Origin: Balneola sp.
GTDB lineage: Bacteria; Bacteroidota; Rhodothermia; Balneolales; Balneolaceae
Direction of reading: 5' to 3'
Length of the DNA: 64,000 bases
Assembly: GCA_003712055.1 (NCBI GenBank)
Contig: RHLJ01000002.1
Span: 372,001 to 436,000 of the forward strand
Each line of letters opens with the position of its first letter. Position 1 is the stretch's first letter. Shown piece by piece: positions 8,326 through 46,149 of the stretch. The position numbers and the translations under genes are program-made. The notes below the pieces were generated by a model. That model had not been told where the DNA came from. It saw nothing but the letters and a program-made list of their open reading frames with translations, and did no database searches.

Positions 8326-8402
8326 AGGTGAGAGGTGAGAGGTGAGAGGTGAGAGGTGAGAGGTGAGAGGTGAGAGGTGAGAGGTGAGAGGTGAGAGGTG
8401 AG
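8326..8402. repeat. Heptamer tandem array, 11 x AGGTGAG
   Basis: Exactly eleven uninterrupted copies of AGGTGAG (77 bp) begin at the base after the serS TAG. Just downstream CCTCTCAC (8421-8428) is the complement of GTGAGAGG, so any register of the array can fold into a hairpin with it. The array fills the convergent gap between serS and the small membrane protein gene. Perfect copies imply recent expansion by slippage, so copy number probably varies between strains. Confidence 0.97.
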
Positions 8403-8431
8403 GCTGCTCATCACTTATCTCCTCTCACTTA

Positions 8432-20416: not shown

Positions 20417-20434
20417 CTTTCGCTCTCTTTCATT

Positions 20435-20528
20435 GTCATTCTGAGGCTACTGCCGAAGAATCAACAAAGCCATAAATTTGTTTAGGTTGTTAATTGTGCT
20501 GATTCTTCGCAAGTATGCTCAGAATGAC
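20435..20528. repeat. REPIN-like doublet A (class 1 hairpins)
   Basis: Two inverted 29-base arms (20435-20463 and 20500-20528) lie in the convergent gap between the oxidoreductase gene and safE. Read towards the centre, each arm is GTC, stem ATTCT, GA, a 2-base inner stem, a 6-base loop, the inner stem partner, GA, AGAAT, CA. The inner stem is GG/CC with loop CTACTG on the left and GC/GC with loop ATACTT on the right. The arms therefore differ in sequence but keep pairing. Copies B and D have the same plan. Confidence 0.9.
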
Positions 20529-20531
20529 GAT

Positions 20532-31907: not shown

Positions 31908-31924
31908 GAACAAACCCCTCTAAA

Positions 31925-32053
31925 TGTCATCCCGGACTTGATCCGGGATCTGTAGTGAATGATTCGTTGATGAAAAGTAAGCTTTAGATCAAAGCCTACC
32001 CTTATAGATGCTGAATCAAGTTCAGCATGACAGTAATATTGTCCGGGATGACA
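31925..32053. repeat. REPIN-like doublet C (class 2, CTTGA-loop hairpins)
   Basis: Inverted 27-base arms at 31925-31951 and 32006-32032 both read, inward, TGTC, an 8-bp stem, loop CTTGA, the stem partner, CT. The left stem is ATCCCGGA/TCCGGGAT and the right stem ATGCTGAA/TTCAGCAT. The six positions that differ between arms form three compensated base pairs. A third partial arm, TCCGGGATGACA, follows at 32042-32053. It lies in the convergent gap between purL and the AraC-type regulator. Confidence 0.9.
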
Positions 32054-32071
32054 GGAATAAGAGGAAGTGAT

Positions 32072-37248: not shown

Positions 37249-37360
37249 GTAATATTCTGCTTCGTTGCGTGAGTTTTTCAGGGCGGAAAAGATAAGGATT
37301 TACTATCTCCTTTTTACTACCAAAGCAAGAAAGTTATTAAGTGTAAATATTAACCCGCAT

Positions 37361-37430
37361 CAATTAAGAATTAAGAATTAAGAATGGTAATTTCCAGATT
37401 CAAAAATCACTCATTTTTAATTCTTAATTG
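37361..37430. repeat. 70-bp AT-rich palindrome with ATTAAGA heptamers upstream of asd
   Basis: CAATTAAGAATTA at 37361-37373 is inverted exactly at 37418-37430 (TAATTCTTAATTG). The left arm contains three tandem ATTAAGA heptamers (37363-37383). The right arm ends 3 bases before the asd ATG. The motif recurs in the composite element at 43.8 kb. It fills most of the divergent glyS-asd gap, so it may overlap asd expression signals. Confidence 0.9.
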
Positions 37431-38483: not shown

Positions 38484-38563
38484 GAATAAAGAACATTGAA
38501 TAAGGAACACCGAATTTCGAAGTTCTACATTCATCTGGTAAGTCATTGATCAATCATCAATTT

Positions 38564-38584
38564 TTCAATGTTCAATGTTCAATG
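38564..38584. repeat. Heptamer array, 3 x TTCAATG
   Basis: Three perfect copies of TTCAATG, the complement of the CATTGAA unit found 10 times at 44.0 kb, lie at the end of the convergent gap between asd and the paralogue pair. Degenerate copies of the complement (GAACATTGAATAAGGAACA) lie at the other end of the gap near 38490-38508, giving an imperfect inverted layout. The array reaches to within two bases of the neighbouring stop codon. Confidence 0.85.
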
Positions 38585-38585
38585 T

Positions 38586-39607: not shown

Positions 39608-42600
39608 ATGAAAGTATTGTTTGCCTCTCTGCTTTTATTATTTGCTCATCAGTTATATGCACAAAATTTTGAGGATGATTTCTCTGATGGAGATTTTACC
39701 TCAAATCCAGTCTGGTCGGGCGCAGATAGCAACTTTGTAATTTTTGAGCTGGATGGGAATAATGCGCTTCGATTAAATGACAATGAAGCATCTACTTCTT
39801 ACCTCTCTACGGCCTCATCAAATGTAATAGGAGAATGGGAGTTCTTTGTTCGTATTGATGGGGGTGCTCCTTCGAATAGTAACAGAGCTGAAGTTTACTT
39901 GATGAGCGACATTGCCGATTTAGATGGAGCAGTAAATGGATATGCTTTAAGAATTGGTCAAACCGGTGATGATGTATTTACACTTGTGCGGTTTGATGCA
40001 GGATCTCAAAGCACCATTCTTCAAGATACTACCATATTCCAGGCCGGGGGTGAATATCGGGTAAAGGTATCCAGAGATGGAAGTGGAAGTTGGTCGATCG
40101 AAGTTGGGGAAGGGTATAATGGGGATTTGAAGAATTCGGGGAATACAGCGTTGGATAACACGCATACAAGTTCTTCCTTTTTTGGAGTATGGGTGAGCTA
40201 TACGAGTACCCGTACCGACGATTTCTATTTCGATTTTAAAATTGATCCTCCTCCGGTAATTATCGATCCATTGATGATTAGCAGCTTTGAAGTACAGAAC
40301 CAATTTGAGATTGATATCGCTTTTACCAGAGAGGTTGATGTTAATACAGTTCAGGTATCAGACTTTATATTAAATGGATCTACGTTTCCGAACACAGTCT
40401 CAGATCTTTCAAATGATACTATTCGAGTAGCGTTCAATTTACCAATACCCGGAGGCGAAAATGAGCTGTTTATTTCCGGGATTGAAAGTTTTAATAACGA
40501 TACGGTGTTAACCGATACCACTCTCAACTTCTTTATTTTTGATGAATTTCTTACTGGAGATGTAATAATTAATGAGTTTTTAAAAGATCCACCTTCAGGA
40601 TCCGGATTGTCGGAATACATAGAATTAAGAAATACATCCTCAAAATATTTAAACCTCAATGGTTGGCAGATTGGAGATAATTCTTCACTTGCTGAGATAA
40701 GTAGTGAAGACCTGATTCTACTCCCGGATAGTTTTCTAGTAATTACTTCTGATCCCGACGCCCTCACCGCTGAATTCGGGGAAGGAGTGTATGTAGATGT
40801 TTCTCTTCCTGCACTAAATAATACAACTGACCAGATCAGGGTATTTGATCCTGAGGGTAATAGTGTCGATTCTCTGGAATATACTCTGGATTGGGGCGGG
40901 GTAGATGTTGCCCTAGAGCGCCGGAGCCCAGATTTAGCTTCAACATTTCAGGCGAATTGGGGAGATTCTCCTAGTGCTATTGGAACTCCCGGCAGGCAAA
41001 ATGATATTGAATTGGATACGGAACCTCCCGGGTTAGAATCCTGGGAGTTTCTAAATGACAGTACACTTCTGCTGGTTTTTACTGAAGAAATAAAAAGCGA
41101 ACCTGCTGAAAATCCCGACAATTATTATGTTGCAATTCCTGTTGCAGCAGCATCTGAGCTACAAAATGGTGAGAACGATTTCTTAAGAGCTACCTTCTTT
41201 TCTCCTGATACTGTGCTGATTGATTTTTTTGACCCTCCTTACTCAGGAGGGCTTCCCAATAGTTTTGTAATCGAAAATCAGGAGGATGTTTTTGGAAACA
41301 TTAGTTCAGTTCTTGTCTTTGAATACCAGCTTTTACCTACAGCAGAAGCACTTCCCGGAGATATCGCAATTAATGAGTTTATGTATGATCCCGCAGATGG
41401 GTATACAGAATTCATCGAAATAAATAGCCACACTGATAAGATCATCAACCTTAAGGGATGGACCTTAAGTGATAATTCCGGAAACCATCGAGTGATTACA
41501 GAAGAAGATTTTTTCATTACCAGTTACGGTACTTCTTTTTCTTTGGGACTTGTCTGGAACCAGCATACTATTCTTGTTCCTGGCGAAGAATTCACCGAAT
41601 CAGCTCAGGAAACGATCATTATGGGAAGTAATTTTCCGATTTTGAACAACACCTCCGATGCCATAGTTATCAAAAATGCAGAGGGCATTACCATAGATTC
41701 ATTAACCTATTTTTCAAGCTGGGGAGGAGATGAAGTTTCATTAGAGCGCAGATCAGTAGATTTTCCCGCGACTTTTAGAGAGAATTGGGGAGACAGTCCT
41801 TCCGAGAATCTGGCTACACCAGCACGAGAAAATGCAATCGGAGTAGATACATTGGGCCCTCAGTTAATAGCCGCTTCAACGCTCTCATCAACAGAGATAC
41901 AACTTGTGTTTAATGAAGCTCCTGTTGAACCAACAGTATCGGATACATCCAATTTCAAAGTGAGCGGGCTCAATGAATTTGACCGATTAGAGGTTGCTGA
42001 GGATACAGTTACCCTTATTTTTTTACTTCCATTTGAAGATGGACAAACGATTTCAATCCGTGTACTTAATCAGAGTGATGTATTCGGTAATAATACACTT
42101 AGTCAAAATATAGAAGTAACCTATGTAGAAATTCAGTCTGCTCAGCCAGCTCAGGTAGTAATTAATGAAATCTTATATCGAAGAGCAGATGCTTTCTCTC
42201 CCGAGTTTGTAGAGTTATACAATAACAGTGATAATAATTTTGATCTTTCGGGATGGAAACTAATAGATGCCGGGAATAATGATGCAGAACTTCCTGATGG
42301 GACACTCATATTTGCAGGTGAATATCTTGTGTTAACAGATCAGGAGGACTTCGCGGCATCGGTTGTTAATGGCATCTATTTAAATGATTTTCCCTCCCTT
42401 AATGATAGCGGAGATGAAGTGATTATTAAGGATGCTGAAGGCGCAACCATGGATAGCTTATTTTATGAATCCGATTGGGGAGGAGATTCTCCAGGGGTAT
42501 CCTTAGAAAGAAGGGATCCGGAAGCTGCTTCTAATGACCCATCCAATTGGGGCACCAGTACCGCCGAGGGAGGTTTTAGTGCAGGCACCGAAAGCGCGTT

Positions 42601-43822
42601 ATTTGAAATAGATGTTACAGCTCCGGAGATTATTTTTGCTGTCCAGATTGATACCTTGGTGCGAGTTGTTTTTTCTGAGTTCGTAAGAATTGACGGCGAA
42701 ACATCTTTTTTTGTGAATAGCCAGGAAACACTACCAGTTGATATAGGTGAGATACCGGAAAATGAGCTCTACCTGACCTGGTATCCTGCGTTTTTTGTAG
42801 ACAATAACAAGAGAGCGTCTACAGGCCGTACAAATGTTAATGTAGAGATTCGAAACATAAGAGATGTAAAAGGGAATTTAGCCCAAACCATTACTTCTGT
42901 TCTTGCTTCGCCTATCTCACAAGGGTCAATTGTAATCAATGAAATAATGTTTGATCCACTAGCAGACTCTGATGATAATCTCCCGGATCAAACCGAGTAT
43001 GTAGAGCTTTATAATCCTACCAACGAAGCCATTTCATTAGAAGGAATTACCATTCATGATGCTCCGGACGAAGATGATGGAATTAGGATCATTGAGCCTG
43101 TTTCATCAGAGTTCAAATGGATTCCTTCAGGAGGATATTTTCTCATTTACTCAGAAGACGCAGCAGAAACATTCACGGATAGCCGTATTGCGCAGTATTT
43201 CAGTTTGGAAGGCGAGTCAGATCAATTTACAATGAGAGTTGACCGTTCGAGTTTAAGTCTGGCTTCATCTGGAGATGCTATTTTCATAGCCGATAGCAGT
43301 GGTGCAACTATAGATTCAGTATTCTATGACGAAAGCTGGCATAACCCTAATGTATTTGATACCGACGGTATAGCCCTGGAACGGATCAATCCTCAGGGAT
43401 CAAGTAATGATGAAAGTAATTGGAGTTCCAGTACCGATATAAGCGGTGGAACGCCTACCATGCAGAATACTATTTTCCAAGAGCCCGGAAGTCTACCACC
43501 TTCGTCCGGAATTTCATTTTCGCCCAACCCTTTCTCTCCGGACGATGATGGCTTTGAAGACAACTTATTTATCAATTATACACTGGATGCTCCTGATTAT
43601 TTACTTAGAGTTCGAATATTCGATAGATATGGTCGTGAGGTAAGAGAACTGGCGGACGGAGTTCAGGCAGGATTTGAAGGTTCCCTTATTTGGGATGGTC
43701 TCACTGATGACCGACGCAAGAACAGGGTAGGAATCTATATAGTGCTTTTTGAAGCGTATAACAGCGCCAGCGGAAGGGATAGAACGTTTAAAGAGACCGT
43801 GGTTTTAGCCAGGATGTTTTAG
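39608..43822 (+). CDS. Large secreted lamin-tail-domain surface protein
   Basis: A 1404-residue exported protein. A signal peptide (about 1-19) is followed by a concanavalin-like region to about 210. Four lamin-tail domains then begin near 317, 584, 849 and 1107. Each starts with a V/I-x-INE[FI] strand (VIINEFL, AINEFMYDP, VINEILY, VINEIMFDP). Each closes with an LERR/LERI...NW segment and a TP- or GT-type turn. SbsA-like Ig modules with FTE/FNE/FSE strands lie between them. The C-terminus (about 1301-1404) is FSPNPFSPDDDG plus a FlgD-like Ig domain ending in VVLARMF, as in secreted Bacteroidota proteins. Probably a cell-surface scaffold or nuclease-associated adhesin; no catalytic motif seen. 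Confidence 0.85.
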   Translation: MKVLFASLLLLFAHQLYAQNFEDDFSDGDFTSNPVWSGADSNFVIFELDGNNALRLNDNEASTSYLSTASSNVIGEWEFFVRIDGGAPSNSNRAEVYLMSDIADLDGAVNGYALRIGQTGDDVFTLVRFDAGSQSTILQDTTIFQAGGEYRVKVSRDGSGSWSIEVGEGYNGDLKNSGNTALDNTHTSSSFFGVWVSYTSTRTDDFYFDFKIDPPPVIIDPLMISSFEVQNQFEIDIAFTREVDVNTVQVSDFILNGSTFPNTVSDLSNDTIRVAFNLPIPGGENELFISGIESFNNDTVLTDTTLNFFIFDEFLTGDVIINEFLKDPPSGSGLSEYIELRNTSSKYLNLNGWQIGDNSSLAEISSEDLILLPDSFLVITSDPDALTAEFGEGVYVDVSLPALNNTTDQIRVFDPEGNSVDSLEYTLDWGGVDVALERRSPDLASTFQANWGDSPSAIGTPGRQNDIELDTEPPGLESWEFLNDSTLLLVFTEEIKSEPAENPDNYYVAIPVAAASELQNGENDFLRATFFSPDTVLIDFFDPPYSGGLPNSFVIENQEDVFGNISSVLVFEYQLLPTAEALPGDIAINEFMYDPADGYTEFIEINSHTDKIINLKGWTLSDNSGNHRVITEEDFFITSYGTSFSLGLVWNQHTILVPGEEFTESAQETIIMGSNFPILNNTSDAIVIKNAEGITIDSLTYFSSWGGDEVSLERRSVDFPATFRENWGDSPSENLATPARENAIGVDTLGPQLIAASTLSSTEIQLVFNEAPVEPTVSDTSNFKVSGLNEFDRLEVAEDTVTLIFLLPFEDGQTISIRVLNQSDVFGNNTLSQNIEVTYVEIQSAQPAQVVINEILYRRADAFSPEFVELYNNSDNNFDLSGWKLIDAGNNDAELPDGTLIFAGEYLVLTDQEDFAASVVNGIYLNDFPSLNDSGDEVIIKDAEGATMDSLFYESDWGGDSPGVSLERRDPEAASNDPSNWGTSTAEGGFSAGTESALFEIDVTAPEIIFAVQIDTLVRVVFSEFVRIDGETSFFVNSQETLPVDIGEIPENELYLTWYPAFFVDNNKRASTGRTNVNVEIRNIRDVKGNLAQTITSVLASPISQGSIVINEIMFDPLADSDDNLPDQTEYVELYNPTNEAISLEGITIHDAPDEDDGIRIIEPVSSEFKWIPSGGYFLIYSEDAAETFTDSRIAQYFSLEGESDQFTMRVDRSSLSLASSGDAIFIADSSGATIDSVFYDESWHNPNVFDTDGIALERINPQGSSNDESNWSSSTDISGGTPTMQNTIFQEPGSLPPSSGISFSPNPFSPDDDGFEDNLFINYTLDAPDYLLRVRIFDRYGREVRELADGVQAGFEGSLIWDGLTDDRRKNRVGIYIVLFEAYNSASGRDRTFKETVVLARMF

Positions 43823-43894
43823 TGCTCGCTATGCTCGCCAATTATCAATTGTTCAATGTTCAATTAAGAATTATCAATTAGGAATAAAGTGCTT

Positions 43895-43973
43895 GCCATT
43901 TCGAGTCGAGCGAGAAATCTAGGAATTAGGCTTTGTTTACGATTTTAGATTTCTCACATTCGTTCGAAATGAC
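43895..43973. repeat. REPIN-like doublet D (class 1 hairpins)
   Basis: Arms at 43895-43920 and 43947-43973 follow the plan of doublets A and B with a different stem, ATTTC/GAAAT. GA/GA lies inside it in both arms. The inner stem is AC/GT with loop GAAT in the right arm and G-C plus T-G around CGA in the left arm. The right arm keeps the GTC foot; the left has GCC. The 26-base spacer is the shortest of the set. Confidence 0.88.
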
Positions 43974-43984
43974 AAGATTACCTA

Positions 43985-44054
43985 ATTGAACATTGAACAT
44001 TGAACATTGAACATTGAACATTGAACATTGAACATTGAACATTGAACATTGAAC
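43985..44054. repeat. Heptamer tandem array, 10 x ATTGAAC
   Basis: Seventy bases made of exactly ten perfect ATTGAAC units. The last two units form part of the right terminal inverted repeat of the composite element. Reverse-complement units occur at 38.56 kb and 43.85 kb. Confidence 0.97.
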
Positions 44055-44067
44055 AATTGATAATTGC

Positions 44068-46149
44068 CTAATTCTTAATTGAATAATTGATTCCCAGCCC
44101 AAAAAACCAATTCCTCTCTGGTGCAGGTTGGAAATAACGGCCTCCAAAGGGATTACTGTCAAAGCCGAGACTGTATTCCTCATCCAAAAGATTATCAACC
44201 CCAAAATGAGCATTTAGCATAATATTATCGGCTAGCTTTCCGGACCAATCCAGTTTTGTTTGTAGCACATTAAAAGATTCTGAATAGATGGTATTATCGT
44301 CTCTCAATGGTTGTTCATCCACAAAGCGATGTGTAACAGCGATTGAAAAGCCCTGGTCAAACTCAAAACTAATTCGATTAAAAAGTTCATGAGCAGGAAC
44401 TCCGGTAAGTTCATTTCCAGAGAAATCACCATCTGAAGTATTGTATTCATCAAAAGTGAAATCGCTGAAGGTATAAGCTATAGAGAGTTCAGCCTGATTT
44501 AAGATAGAGACAGGGTTTTTGAGCAAGAGGTAATTGGCATTAAGCTCTAGCCCTTTTTGGTCAGTAGTACCGACATTAAGAAACACAGATGTTTCGGGAC
44601 GATCGGGGCTTGGCTGGTTGGTGATGGCGTCCTGGAGTTTGTAATAAAAAACTACTGCATCAAAACCTAGTCGGCCTTTTAGCGCATTTCCCCTCGCTCC
44701 TACTTCATAATTGATGCCTCGTTCCGCTTCCAGGTCAAGGTTGATGCTTGCTTCGTTAGTCCGTACTTCATCAAAGGTAGGAGGAGAAAAACCGGTGCTA
44801 ATACTACCGTGAATGGTTATTGAAGGAGAAACTTTTTTCGCAATAGCAATTCGAGGTACCAGTTCAGGATCAAAGGTTTTGCTAAAAAGACCGGTAGTGC
44901 TATCCGGAGTATTATCAACCAAACGATTTATCGAATACCTAAGCATGTTGATGCTGAATCCCGCTGTTACATACCAACTATTGTCTAAATCCAATTGAAC
45001 ATTTCCGAAGACTAATCCGGACTGTACTTTTAGCACATCGTCGAAGTTTAATGCACCGGGAGAGCCGGCTTCATTTTCAAAATTTCGGGCAGCATAGCTG
45101 GAAGCTTGTAATTCGGTACCCAGAGAAAATTTGGTATCCAGACCTGATAGGGAAGTATCGTACTCATATACAGAGCGAAGCCCGCCGCTTTTCCTACTAT
45201 CCAATTTATAGTCAAGATTGAAAGGATTTTCGAAATCACTAAAAGTCCCGAATGCAGCTACTTCATTATATAGCTTCTCAGTTATTTGGTAAGTATGGGT
45301 AGCTCCGAAAAGTAAAGATTCATGTTTGATGCTGGCATTTTTTTCAACACTACCAAAAAGACCCCCACGTGCCTGGGTTGGATCTTCATCGAATTGTTCC
45401 TGGGTAAGTCCGCCAGGGATGCCATAATTTAAATCTGAATAAAACATGGAGATTTGAATCTCTCTGCCTTCCATGTATTCTGTTTTACCGGAAACCTCAA
45501 GAATCTCACGGTCAAAGAAAGATTGATCCCTGTACCCATCACTGGTATGATCAGAGAATTTGAAGGAGAGGTGACCATTATCTACGACGTCATCGTATGC
45601 AAGATCGTATCTGAAAGCTCCAAATGAGCCGACCGAAGCTTGTGCTGAAACCCGATCATTCAAAAATGGAGCGGTGCTATTAATTAATAAAGTTCCTCCA
45701 TTCCCGGCACCATACATACTTCCAGATGGTCCTTTAATAATCTCCATTTCCTGCATATTTGAAGGGGAAAGCAAATTTATAAAGGTAGTGCCGGTTGGTT
45801 CGGTAAAAGGAATTCCATTCCAGTACACCTTTACATTTCGCACTCCAAAAGGAGATCGCAAAGAACTTCCTCTTATAGATATTCGATAACTTCCGTTCGC
45901 TCTTTCCCCCATTCGTACTCCTGCAATAGTATTCAACCCGAATACCAACGAAGAATTATCAAAACCGGAAATGAGTTCAGGCTTCAGGTAGCTGATACTA
46001 CCCGGGGTTTCGAGAAGACTACGATTACTCTGATAAGCAACTACCGTGATTTGGTCGAGTTCTACAGATAATGTGTCTGTAGTTGCCTGTGCAAATGCAA
46101 AATGAGGGAAGAATATTATCCCAATGAAGAACAATAATTTTTTAAGCAT
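44068..46149 (-). CDS. TonB-dependent outer-membrane receptor
   Basis: A 693-residue receptor. A Sec signal (LFFIGIIFFPHFAFAQ) is followed by a plug domain at about 30-165 with ELDQITVVAYQSNRSLLETPGS and a barrel of about 22 strands. The barrel ends in NWFFGLGINYSIKN with the usual terminal aromatic pattern. No carboxypeptidase-like N-terminal domain is present, so it is not of the SusC type; siderophore, vitamin or metal-chelate uptake is more likely. Ligand unknown. Monocistronic, divergent from murI. Confidence 0.9.
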   Translation of the reverse strand: MLKKLLFFIGIIFFPHFAFAQATTDTLSVELDQITVVAYQSNRSLLETPGSISYLKPELISGFDNSSLVFGLNTIAGVRMGERANGSYRISIRGSSLRSPFGVRNVKVYWNGIPFTEPTGTTFINLLSPSNMQEMEIIKGPSGSMYGAGNGGTLLINSTAPFLNDRVSAQASVGSFGAFRYDLAYDDVVDNGHLSFKFSDHTSDGYRDQSFFDREILEVSGKTEYMEGREIQISMFYSDLNYGIPGGLTQEQFDEDPTQARGGLFGSVEKNASIKHESLLFGATHTYQITEKLYNEVAAFGTFSDFENPFNLDYKLDSRKSGGLRSVYEYDTSLSGLDTKFSLGTELQASSYAARNFENEAGSPGALNFDDVLKVQSGLVFGNVQLDLDNSWYVTAGFSINMLRYSINRLVDNTPDSTTGLFSKTFDPELVPRIAIAKKVSPSITIHGSISTGFSPPTFDEVRTNEASINLDLEAERGINYEVGARGNALKGRLGFDAVVFYYKLQDAITNQPSPDRPETSVFLNVGTTDQKGLELNANYLLLKNPVSILNQAELSIAYTFSDFTFDEYNTSDGDFSGNELTGVPAHELFNRISFEFDQGFSIAVTHRFVDEQPLRDDNTIYSESFNVLQTKLDWSGKLADNIMLNAHFGVDNLLDEEYSLGFDSNPFGGRYFQPAPERNWFFGLGINYSIKN

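Follow-up and report, generated by a model that had tools for sequence, protein, structure and literature searches.

The 228-nt palindromic element in a convergent intergenic gap of Balneola sp. is probably one case of a widespread, fast-changing heptamer hairpin at the ends of Balneolaceae genes, and probably no jumping gene. It lies in the window, that is, the whole 64,000-nucleotide stretch of DNA that was analysed, between a gene encoding an LTD-domain protein and the gene of a TonB-dependent receptor. The best explanation, for which the case is somewhat better than even, is that of a 3'-end hairpin common to the two converging transcripts, the arms of which consist of 7-nt units, with a REP doublet in the loop, with one unit multiplied, and with renewal of the arms in the way proposed below. 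A broader, joint claim is put forward tentatively, its chances being rated below even. Balneolaceae would possess a class of gene-end hairpins, phased at 7 nt and of fast turnover, that are re-formed in place and do the job for which sister families use a G+C-rich hairpin with a U-tract. It is part of this claim that orthologous gaps within one genus carry unrelated heptamers and that re-formation would occur via slippage and arm-to-arm copying. The interest lies in this wider pattern of heptad hairpins. If right, it would provide a concrete, countable example of a functional RNA element that has a 7-nt step and preserves its shape through replacement of its sequence; it would tie the heptamer excess of bacteria to gene-end hairpins; and it would offer orthologous sites at which slippage and arm homogenisation can be traced stepwise.

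Anatomy and Fold of the Palindrome

The gap, its flanking genes, and the components of the element are arranged in the window as follows.

39608-43822, + strand: LTD-domain gene
43823..44067: intergenic gap of 245 nt, flanked by the converging LTD-domain and TonB-dependent receptor genes
43839..43887, + strand: left arm, degenerate heptamers, pairing with the right arm
43839..43864, + strand: 26-nt perfect inverted terminus, left
43892..43976, no strand assigned: inner REP-like doublet (palindrome)
43977..44066, - strand: right arm, the left-arm heptamers inverted
43985..44060, + strand: tandem array (ATTGAAC)10.7, period 7, 98% matches
44041..44066, - strand: 26-nt perfect inverted terminus, right
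44068-46149, - strand: TonB-dependent receptor gene
44069..44083, - strand: heptamer-like sequence TAATTCTTAATTGAA in the last codons (S-I-K-N region) and stop codon of the receptor

An earlier, sequence-only reading had described 26-bp perfect inverted ends, and these were borne out (26/26 identity; chance expectation 0.00). Divided into 7-nt units, the left arm reads CAATTAT CAATTGT TCAATGT TCAATTA AGAATTA TCAATTA GGAATAA. The right arm, when inverted, begins with the first units of the left arm, continues with TTCAATG repeats, and returns to the left-arm sequence at CAATTAGG. This inner anchor is common to both arms and lies exactly 42 nt deeper on the right arm, the arms thus differing between shared anchors by exactly six heptamers. 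Because both arms read as heptamers, the 26-nt "terminal inverted repeat" is the outer stretch of a heptamer string and no separate terminus. The array is a one-sided expansion, with the unit occurring about twice in the left arm; of the one-sided heptamer array noted earlier, the expansion of the TTCAATG unit on one side is upheld, whereas the heptad structure as such is present in both arms. The doublet is laid out as TGCCATTTCGA-N7-GAGAAATCT plus an inverted TGTCATTTCGA-N8-GAGAAATCT.

The 245-nt gap folds with -77.2 kcal/mol (z = -7.8 versus shuffles), so that this convergent gap contains what is looked for in a terminator, namely, a stable hairpin at a gene end; no U-tract or terminator-like site was found at the element. 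An Rfam search gave no credible match. The fit to the gap is looser than had been stated. Rather than filling the gap exactly, the element leaves 16 nt after the stop of the LTD gene, and rather than ending at the receptor stop codon, repeat material runs on into the receptor gene, where TAATTCTTAATTGAA at 44069-44083 is an exact inverted match of 43859-43873 and the receptor C-terminus reads ...NYSIKN-stop. Positions 43823-43838, between the LTD stop and the left arm, contain a short tandem GCTCGC-TAT-GCTCGC. The top named database matches of the receptor are Balneolaceae MAGs. By-eye sequence comparison indicates that the receptors of two related genomes (G005, G008) and the one at locus L056 are apparently two residues shorter, stopping at the isoleucine of ...NYSI.

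Proposed Function and Renewal

We infer that the hairpin serves in termination or mRNA protection. In RNA, it would mark or protect the 3' ends of both mRNAs, either by termination through folding without a U-tract or by acting as an exonuclease block. The arms would be renewed through heptamer slippage, and one arm would be the template for the other in a template-switching event, by which complementarity would be kept while the sequence is turned over; the REP-type doublet would have arrived separately in the loop. The one-sided arrays, in the element and at 8326-8431, speak for turnover by heptamer slippage. Arm-to-arm copying is suggested by the perfect outer arms taken together with template switching that homogenises hairpin arms, which is a described process (PMC8604942); possibly, the present arms have been homogenised in this manner. 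Differences in arm length that are multiples of 7 were not found in other heptad hairpins, and the general rule that arms always differ in sevens, while true for the element, was abandoned.

Orthologous Gaps in Relatives

In the orthologous gaps, of which those at LTD/TonB had been suggested as the place to look for empty sites, the element itself did not turn up, and no clean empty site did either; the gaps contain other hairpins, mostly of the heptad type, or none. At LTD/TonB in G005, the heptamers TTGAATT ATAAATT ATGAATG TTAAATG are present together with their inverse (z = -6.7, lag-7 p = 0.002), while the arms in G014 are of the ATTAGGA type (z = -8.7, lag-7 p = 0.007; lag 8 also scores). 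Both of these hairpins overlap the receptor stop region.

Two more convergent gaps of the window contain hairpins of this kind.

8326..8431, no strand assigned: third hairpin of the kind, gap 3' of serS, with (AGAGGTG)11 in one arm and degenerate heptamers in the other arm
38484..38585, no strand assigned: second hairpin of the same kind, gap 3' of asd

At the asd gap, the window has TTCAATG, G002 of the same genus has GTTAATG GTTACTG GTTAATT, and G014 has CAGTGAT CAGTGAA CAGTAAG. At the serS gap, GTTAATG/GTTATTA arms with weak folds (z about -1.8) are found in G001 and G002, the lag-7 signal of the latter being marginal (p = 0.067); AAAGCTG units are found in G003 and a hairpin without heptads in G005, whereas G017 and G022, which belong to other families of the order, have G+C hairpins of the canonical kind, followed by U-tracts. 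In G008, no evident hairpin was detected at the LTD/TonB, asd, or serS gap, and the hairpin is, therefore, dispensable. The sequence-only reading would have yielded to one and the same element being present at this site in all relatives and nowhere else in the genome; what was found instead is a design that recurs with a differing sequence. The recurrence of place and design, but not of sequence, is at odds both with one old insertion and with a recent mobile one.

A serious rival to the best reading, if on the whole a rather unlikely one, is neutral slippage without function. The hairpins would then be by-products of heptamer microsatellites that have grown by polymerase slippage where selection is weak and that fold back by chance or after inverted duplication, with their position reflecting tolerance. 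Heptamers are indeed over-represented in bacterial repeats, and slippage related to the polymerase footprint has been put forward to account for this (discussed in PMC4692102). Expansion of ATTGAAC x3 in this species, with presence in only 5/92 family genomes, and the three sites in G008 without evident hairpin agree with the neutral explanation, too. Less easily reconciled with it are the complementary arms of differing heptamers that were kept, or were formed anew, at the corresponding gaps of relatives, and the positional preferences of the hairpins.

Position Relative to Genes

Among 28 ATTGAAC-like elements for which both neighbour genes were called, 16 are in convergent gaps versus 48/365 (13%) in the background (p = 5e-8, uncorrected), a comparison in which retrieval by similarity to a convergent-gap query could favour two-armed cases. 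Only 2/28 are in divergent gaps, which make up 22% of gaps overall, and none lies inside a called gene. Against neutral slippage, convergent gaps are preferred over divergent ones although the latter are more numerous in the sample. Also contrary to it, heptad hairpins in tandem gaps hug the stop codon, with 22/28 being located at most 10 nt from the upstream stop in comparison to 112/242 of other hairpins (p = 0.001, uncorrected). Some heptad hairpins sit in divergent gaps, where a 3'-end role is inapplicable. Canonical terminators were found in 1/41 heptad gaps versus 50/483 others, which is a trend only (p = 0.68 and 0.16 for two gap classes taken separately), and the notion of heptad hairpins excluding such terminators was dropped.

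Heptad Periodicity in the Family

Five Balneolaceae genomes, of which 1.6 Mb in total were sampled, contributed 621 intergenic gaps with lengths of 25-300 nt; genes were called by a home-made dicodon model. For each lag k, the best local self-match was compared with that of 200 dinucleotide shuffles. At lag 7, 9/75 of the convergent, 29/422 of the tandem, and 8/124 of the divergent gaps reached significance, while the figure for other lags was mostly about 1-2%; together with its echo at lag 14, lag 7 is the sole clearly enriched repeat period in the 621 gaps. Most of the lag-7 matches read as hairpins rich in A and T, their units including GTTAATG, AAATTCC, ATTAAAG, and CAGTGAT. When hairpins of at least 13 pairs were considered, lag-7 arms were present in 48/449, compared with 5-16 for each of the lags 4-6 and 8-12. 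In the controls, lag 7 was found in 1/42 gaps of E. coli, 0/79 gaps of Cytophagales, and 4/110 gaps of Chitinophagales-type loci, at least two of the last being plainly hairpins of the same design (e.g., GTTACAGGTTACAGGTTTCAGGG...CCTGTAACCTGAAAC). No published report of heptad-phased hairpins in Balneolaceae was found in the literature searched, which covered few subscription journals.

Copies in the Same Genome and the Inner Doublet

In the assembly of the source genome (G000, 3.63 Mb, 9 contigs), a search with the 26-base terminus, as had been proposed, did retrieve copies, but solely as lone arms. A 24/26 match at 38551-38576, 5.3 kb away, is one arm only of the asd-gap hairpin, and a 26/26 match at C4:324002-324027 is likewise a lone arm. 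The nearest paralogue, at C2:544269, has the order heptamers-doublet-array and 83% identity over query positions 31-228, without the outer arms; a weaker composite paralogue is located at C2:127211. The unit pair ATTGAACATTGAAC has 133 matches in the genome (at most one mismatch), while the reversed control has 0. ATTGAAC x3 occurs 80 times, and since such runs are present in no more than 5 of 92 family genomes, the unit has been expanded in this species. Its copy number differs widely among loci. The end of contig C2 (544384-544549) and the start of C8 (1-127) both lie within ATTGAAC arrays of the same orientation; for this reason, the two contigs may adjoin each other, with an array of some 40 copies or more between them. 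In the sister species G001, a perfect GTTAATC array of about 15 copies is found between tandem genes (L264:720-866). From this different heptamer, it seems that every species expands a heptamer of its own.

The doublet consists of two inverted REPs with a short spacer, and the same doublets of about 72 nt are found elsewhere in the genome and in relatives. The motif ATTTCGA-N5-11-GAGAAATC has 15 strict sites in the genome, most of them in inverted pairs about 72 nt across. Several doublets there stand without heptamers, and the motif is present in 28/92 family genomes, many of which lack the ATTGAAC array. As doublet and heptamer arms occur independently, here and in relatives, the doublet is a component separate from the heptamer arms. 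With REPINs and with the CGTC-tagged REPs (PMC3733652, PMC3116915), a class reported from several phyla, Bacteroidetes included (PMC3733652), it shares the inverted pair of short palindromes and the dispersed, extragenic occurrence in many relatives. It differs in its tag, which reads TGTC and TGCC, near but not equal to CGTC (PMC3733652) and not GTAG. Unlike in REPINs, no REP doublet was found near three Y1 transposase (Y1_Tnp) genes in the 3-kb loci examined, and no RAYT-REP link was found; at L170, GATTTCTC and CATTTCGA each had only a single stray 8-mer match.

These distributions bear on the possibility that the element is a composite non-autonomous transposon (MITE), with a transposase recognising the 26-nt inverted repeats as its ends and the REP doublet being carried along. 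The perfect ends, the composite paralogues at C2:544269 and C2:127211, and the precedent of MITEs bearing tandem repeats (BrickBuilt, PMC4596501) would suit such an element. It is, nevertheless, improbable, since there is no target duplication (the flanks ...GCTCGC and CCTAAT... share none), no copy has the same two termini, the best paralogue lacks the outer termini, doublet and heptamer arms are found apart, and the orthologous gaps compared, all from other species, carry other heptad hairpins, or none, rather than clean empty sites. Hence, of the layered mobile unit of the sequence-only reading, the layering is retained, with a REP-like doublet within a second palindrome, one arm of which bears a young array. 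A MITE, or a REPIN inside a MITE, moving as one unit is not supported, given the lone-arm 26-mers, the missing target duplication, and the parts found apart. If the hairpin reading is right, perfect inverted ends are poor grounds for naming such palindromes mobile elements. A length-variable switch (contingency locus), in which the ATTGAAC copy number tunes expression of the receptor or the LTD protein, is very improbable in spite of the near-perfect 10.7-copy array, the wide variation between loci, and the contigs C2 and C8 ending in arrays, because the array is 3' of both genes, outside any promoter or reading frame, and the unit also adjoins unrelated genes.

Comparison with Known Repeat Systems

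The 3'-end hairpin favoured here resembles bidirectional intrinsic terminators in its location between converging genes, canonical ones being present in other gaps of the same genome, and differs from them by the absence of a U-tract and by its long AT-rich stem built of heptamers. Cyanobacterial STRRs are heptanucleotide repeats; the ATTGAAC repeat is STRR-like in being a tandem 7-nt unit that is intergenic, present at many loci, and lineage-specific. TAACTGA repeats are known from several phyla, including Beggiatoaceae, Cyanobacteria, and Bacteroidetes (PMC4679880). Common to STRR/TAACTGA repeats and the present ones are intergenic multi-copy heptamer arrays that are species-specific and often of mixed heptamers, with contigs broken at long arrays; both of these, however, are direct arrays, which in Maribeggiatoa are mostly just 5' of start codons, while inverted arms at gene ends are found here.

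Inverted heptamer pairs are already known from Xanthomonas, whose GGGAATC repeats form 70-75 inverted pairs per genome (PMC4692102), and the present hairpins are variations on this known theme. Both have 7-nt units in degenerate and perfect arrays, inverted pairing, and an intergenic location near the neighbouring upstream gene, with the gene context mostly kept across species and length and sequence varying (PMC4692102). The Xanthomonas repeats are G-rich and quadruplex-forming, with one unit family per genome, whereas the units described here are mostly AT-rich and site-specific, with long complementary arms and a loop in which a REP doublet can sit. The BrickBuilt MITE of Porphyromonas gingivalis (PMC4596501) is likewise intergenic, with a tandem repeat in an element with inverted ends, but it has a 23-nt unit and leader and tail ends that share terminal inverted repeats, while the copies here are without common ends.

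Further Intergenic Structures

In the 5' leader of asd (window 37249-37427), three AATTAAG heptamers are able to pair with ATTCTTAATT directly ahead of the start codon. The leader sequence TTAATTCTTAATTG is conserved in G014 (see also L232:11712-11818) and similar in G001; judged from sequence, it may constitute a conserved translational switch. Other long convergent-gap hairpins (window 20417-20531 and 31908-32071; L224:5101-5240) belong to different, dispersed-looking families of the GTCATTCTGAGG...GAAGAATC and GTCATCCTGAGC...GAAGGATC types. In the relative G011 (L178), the TonB receptor gene is followed downstream by a pair of long intergenic repeats that are nearly identical (GGACCTCCT...CCTCCTTTGAAGGAGG).
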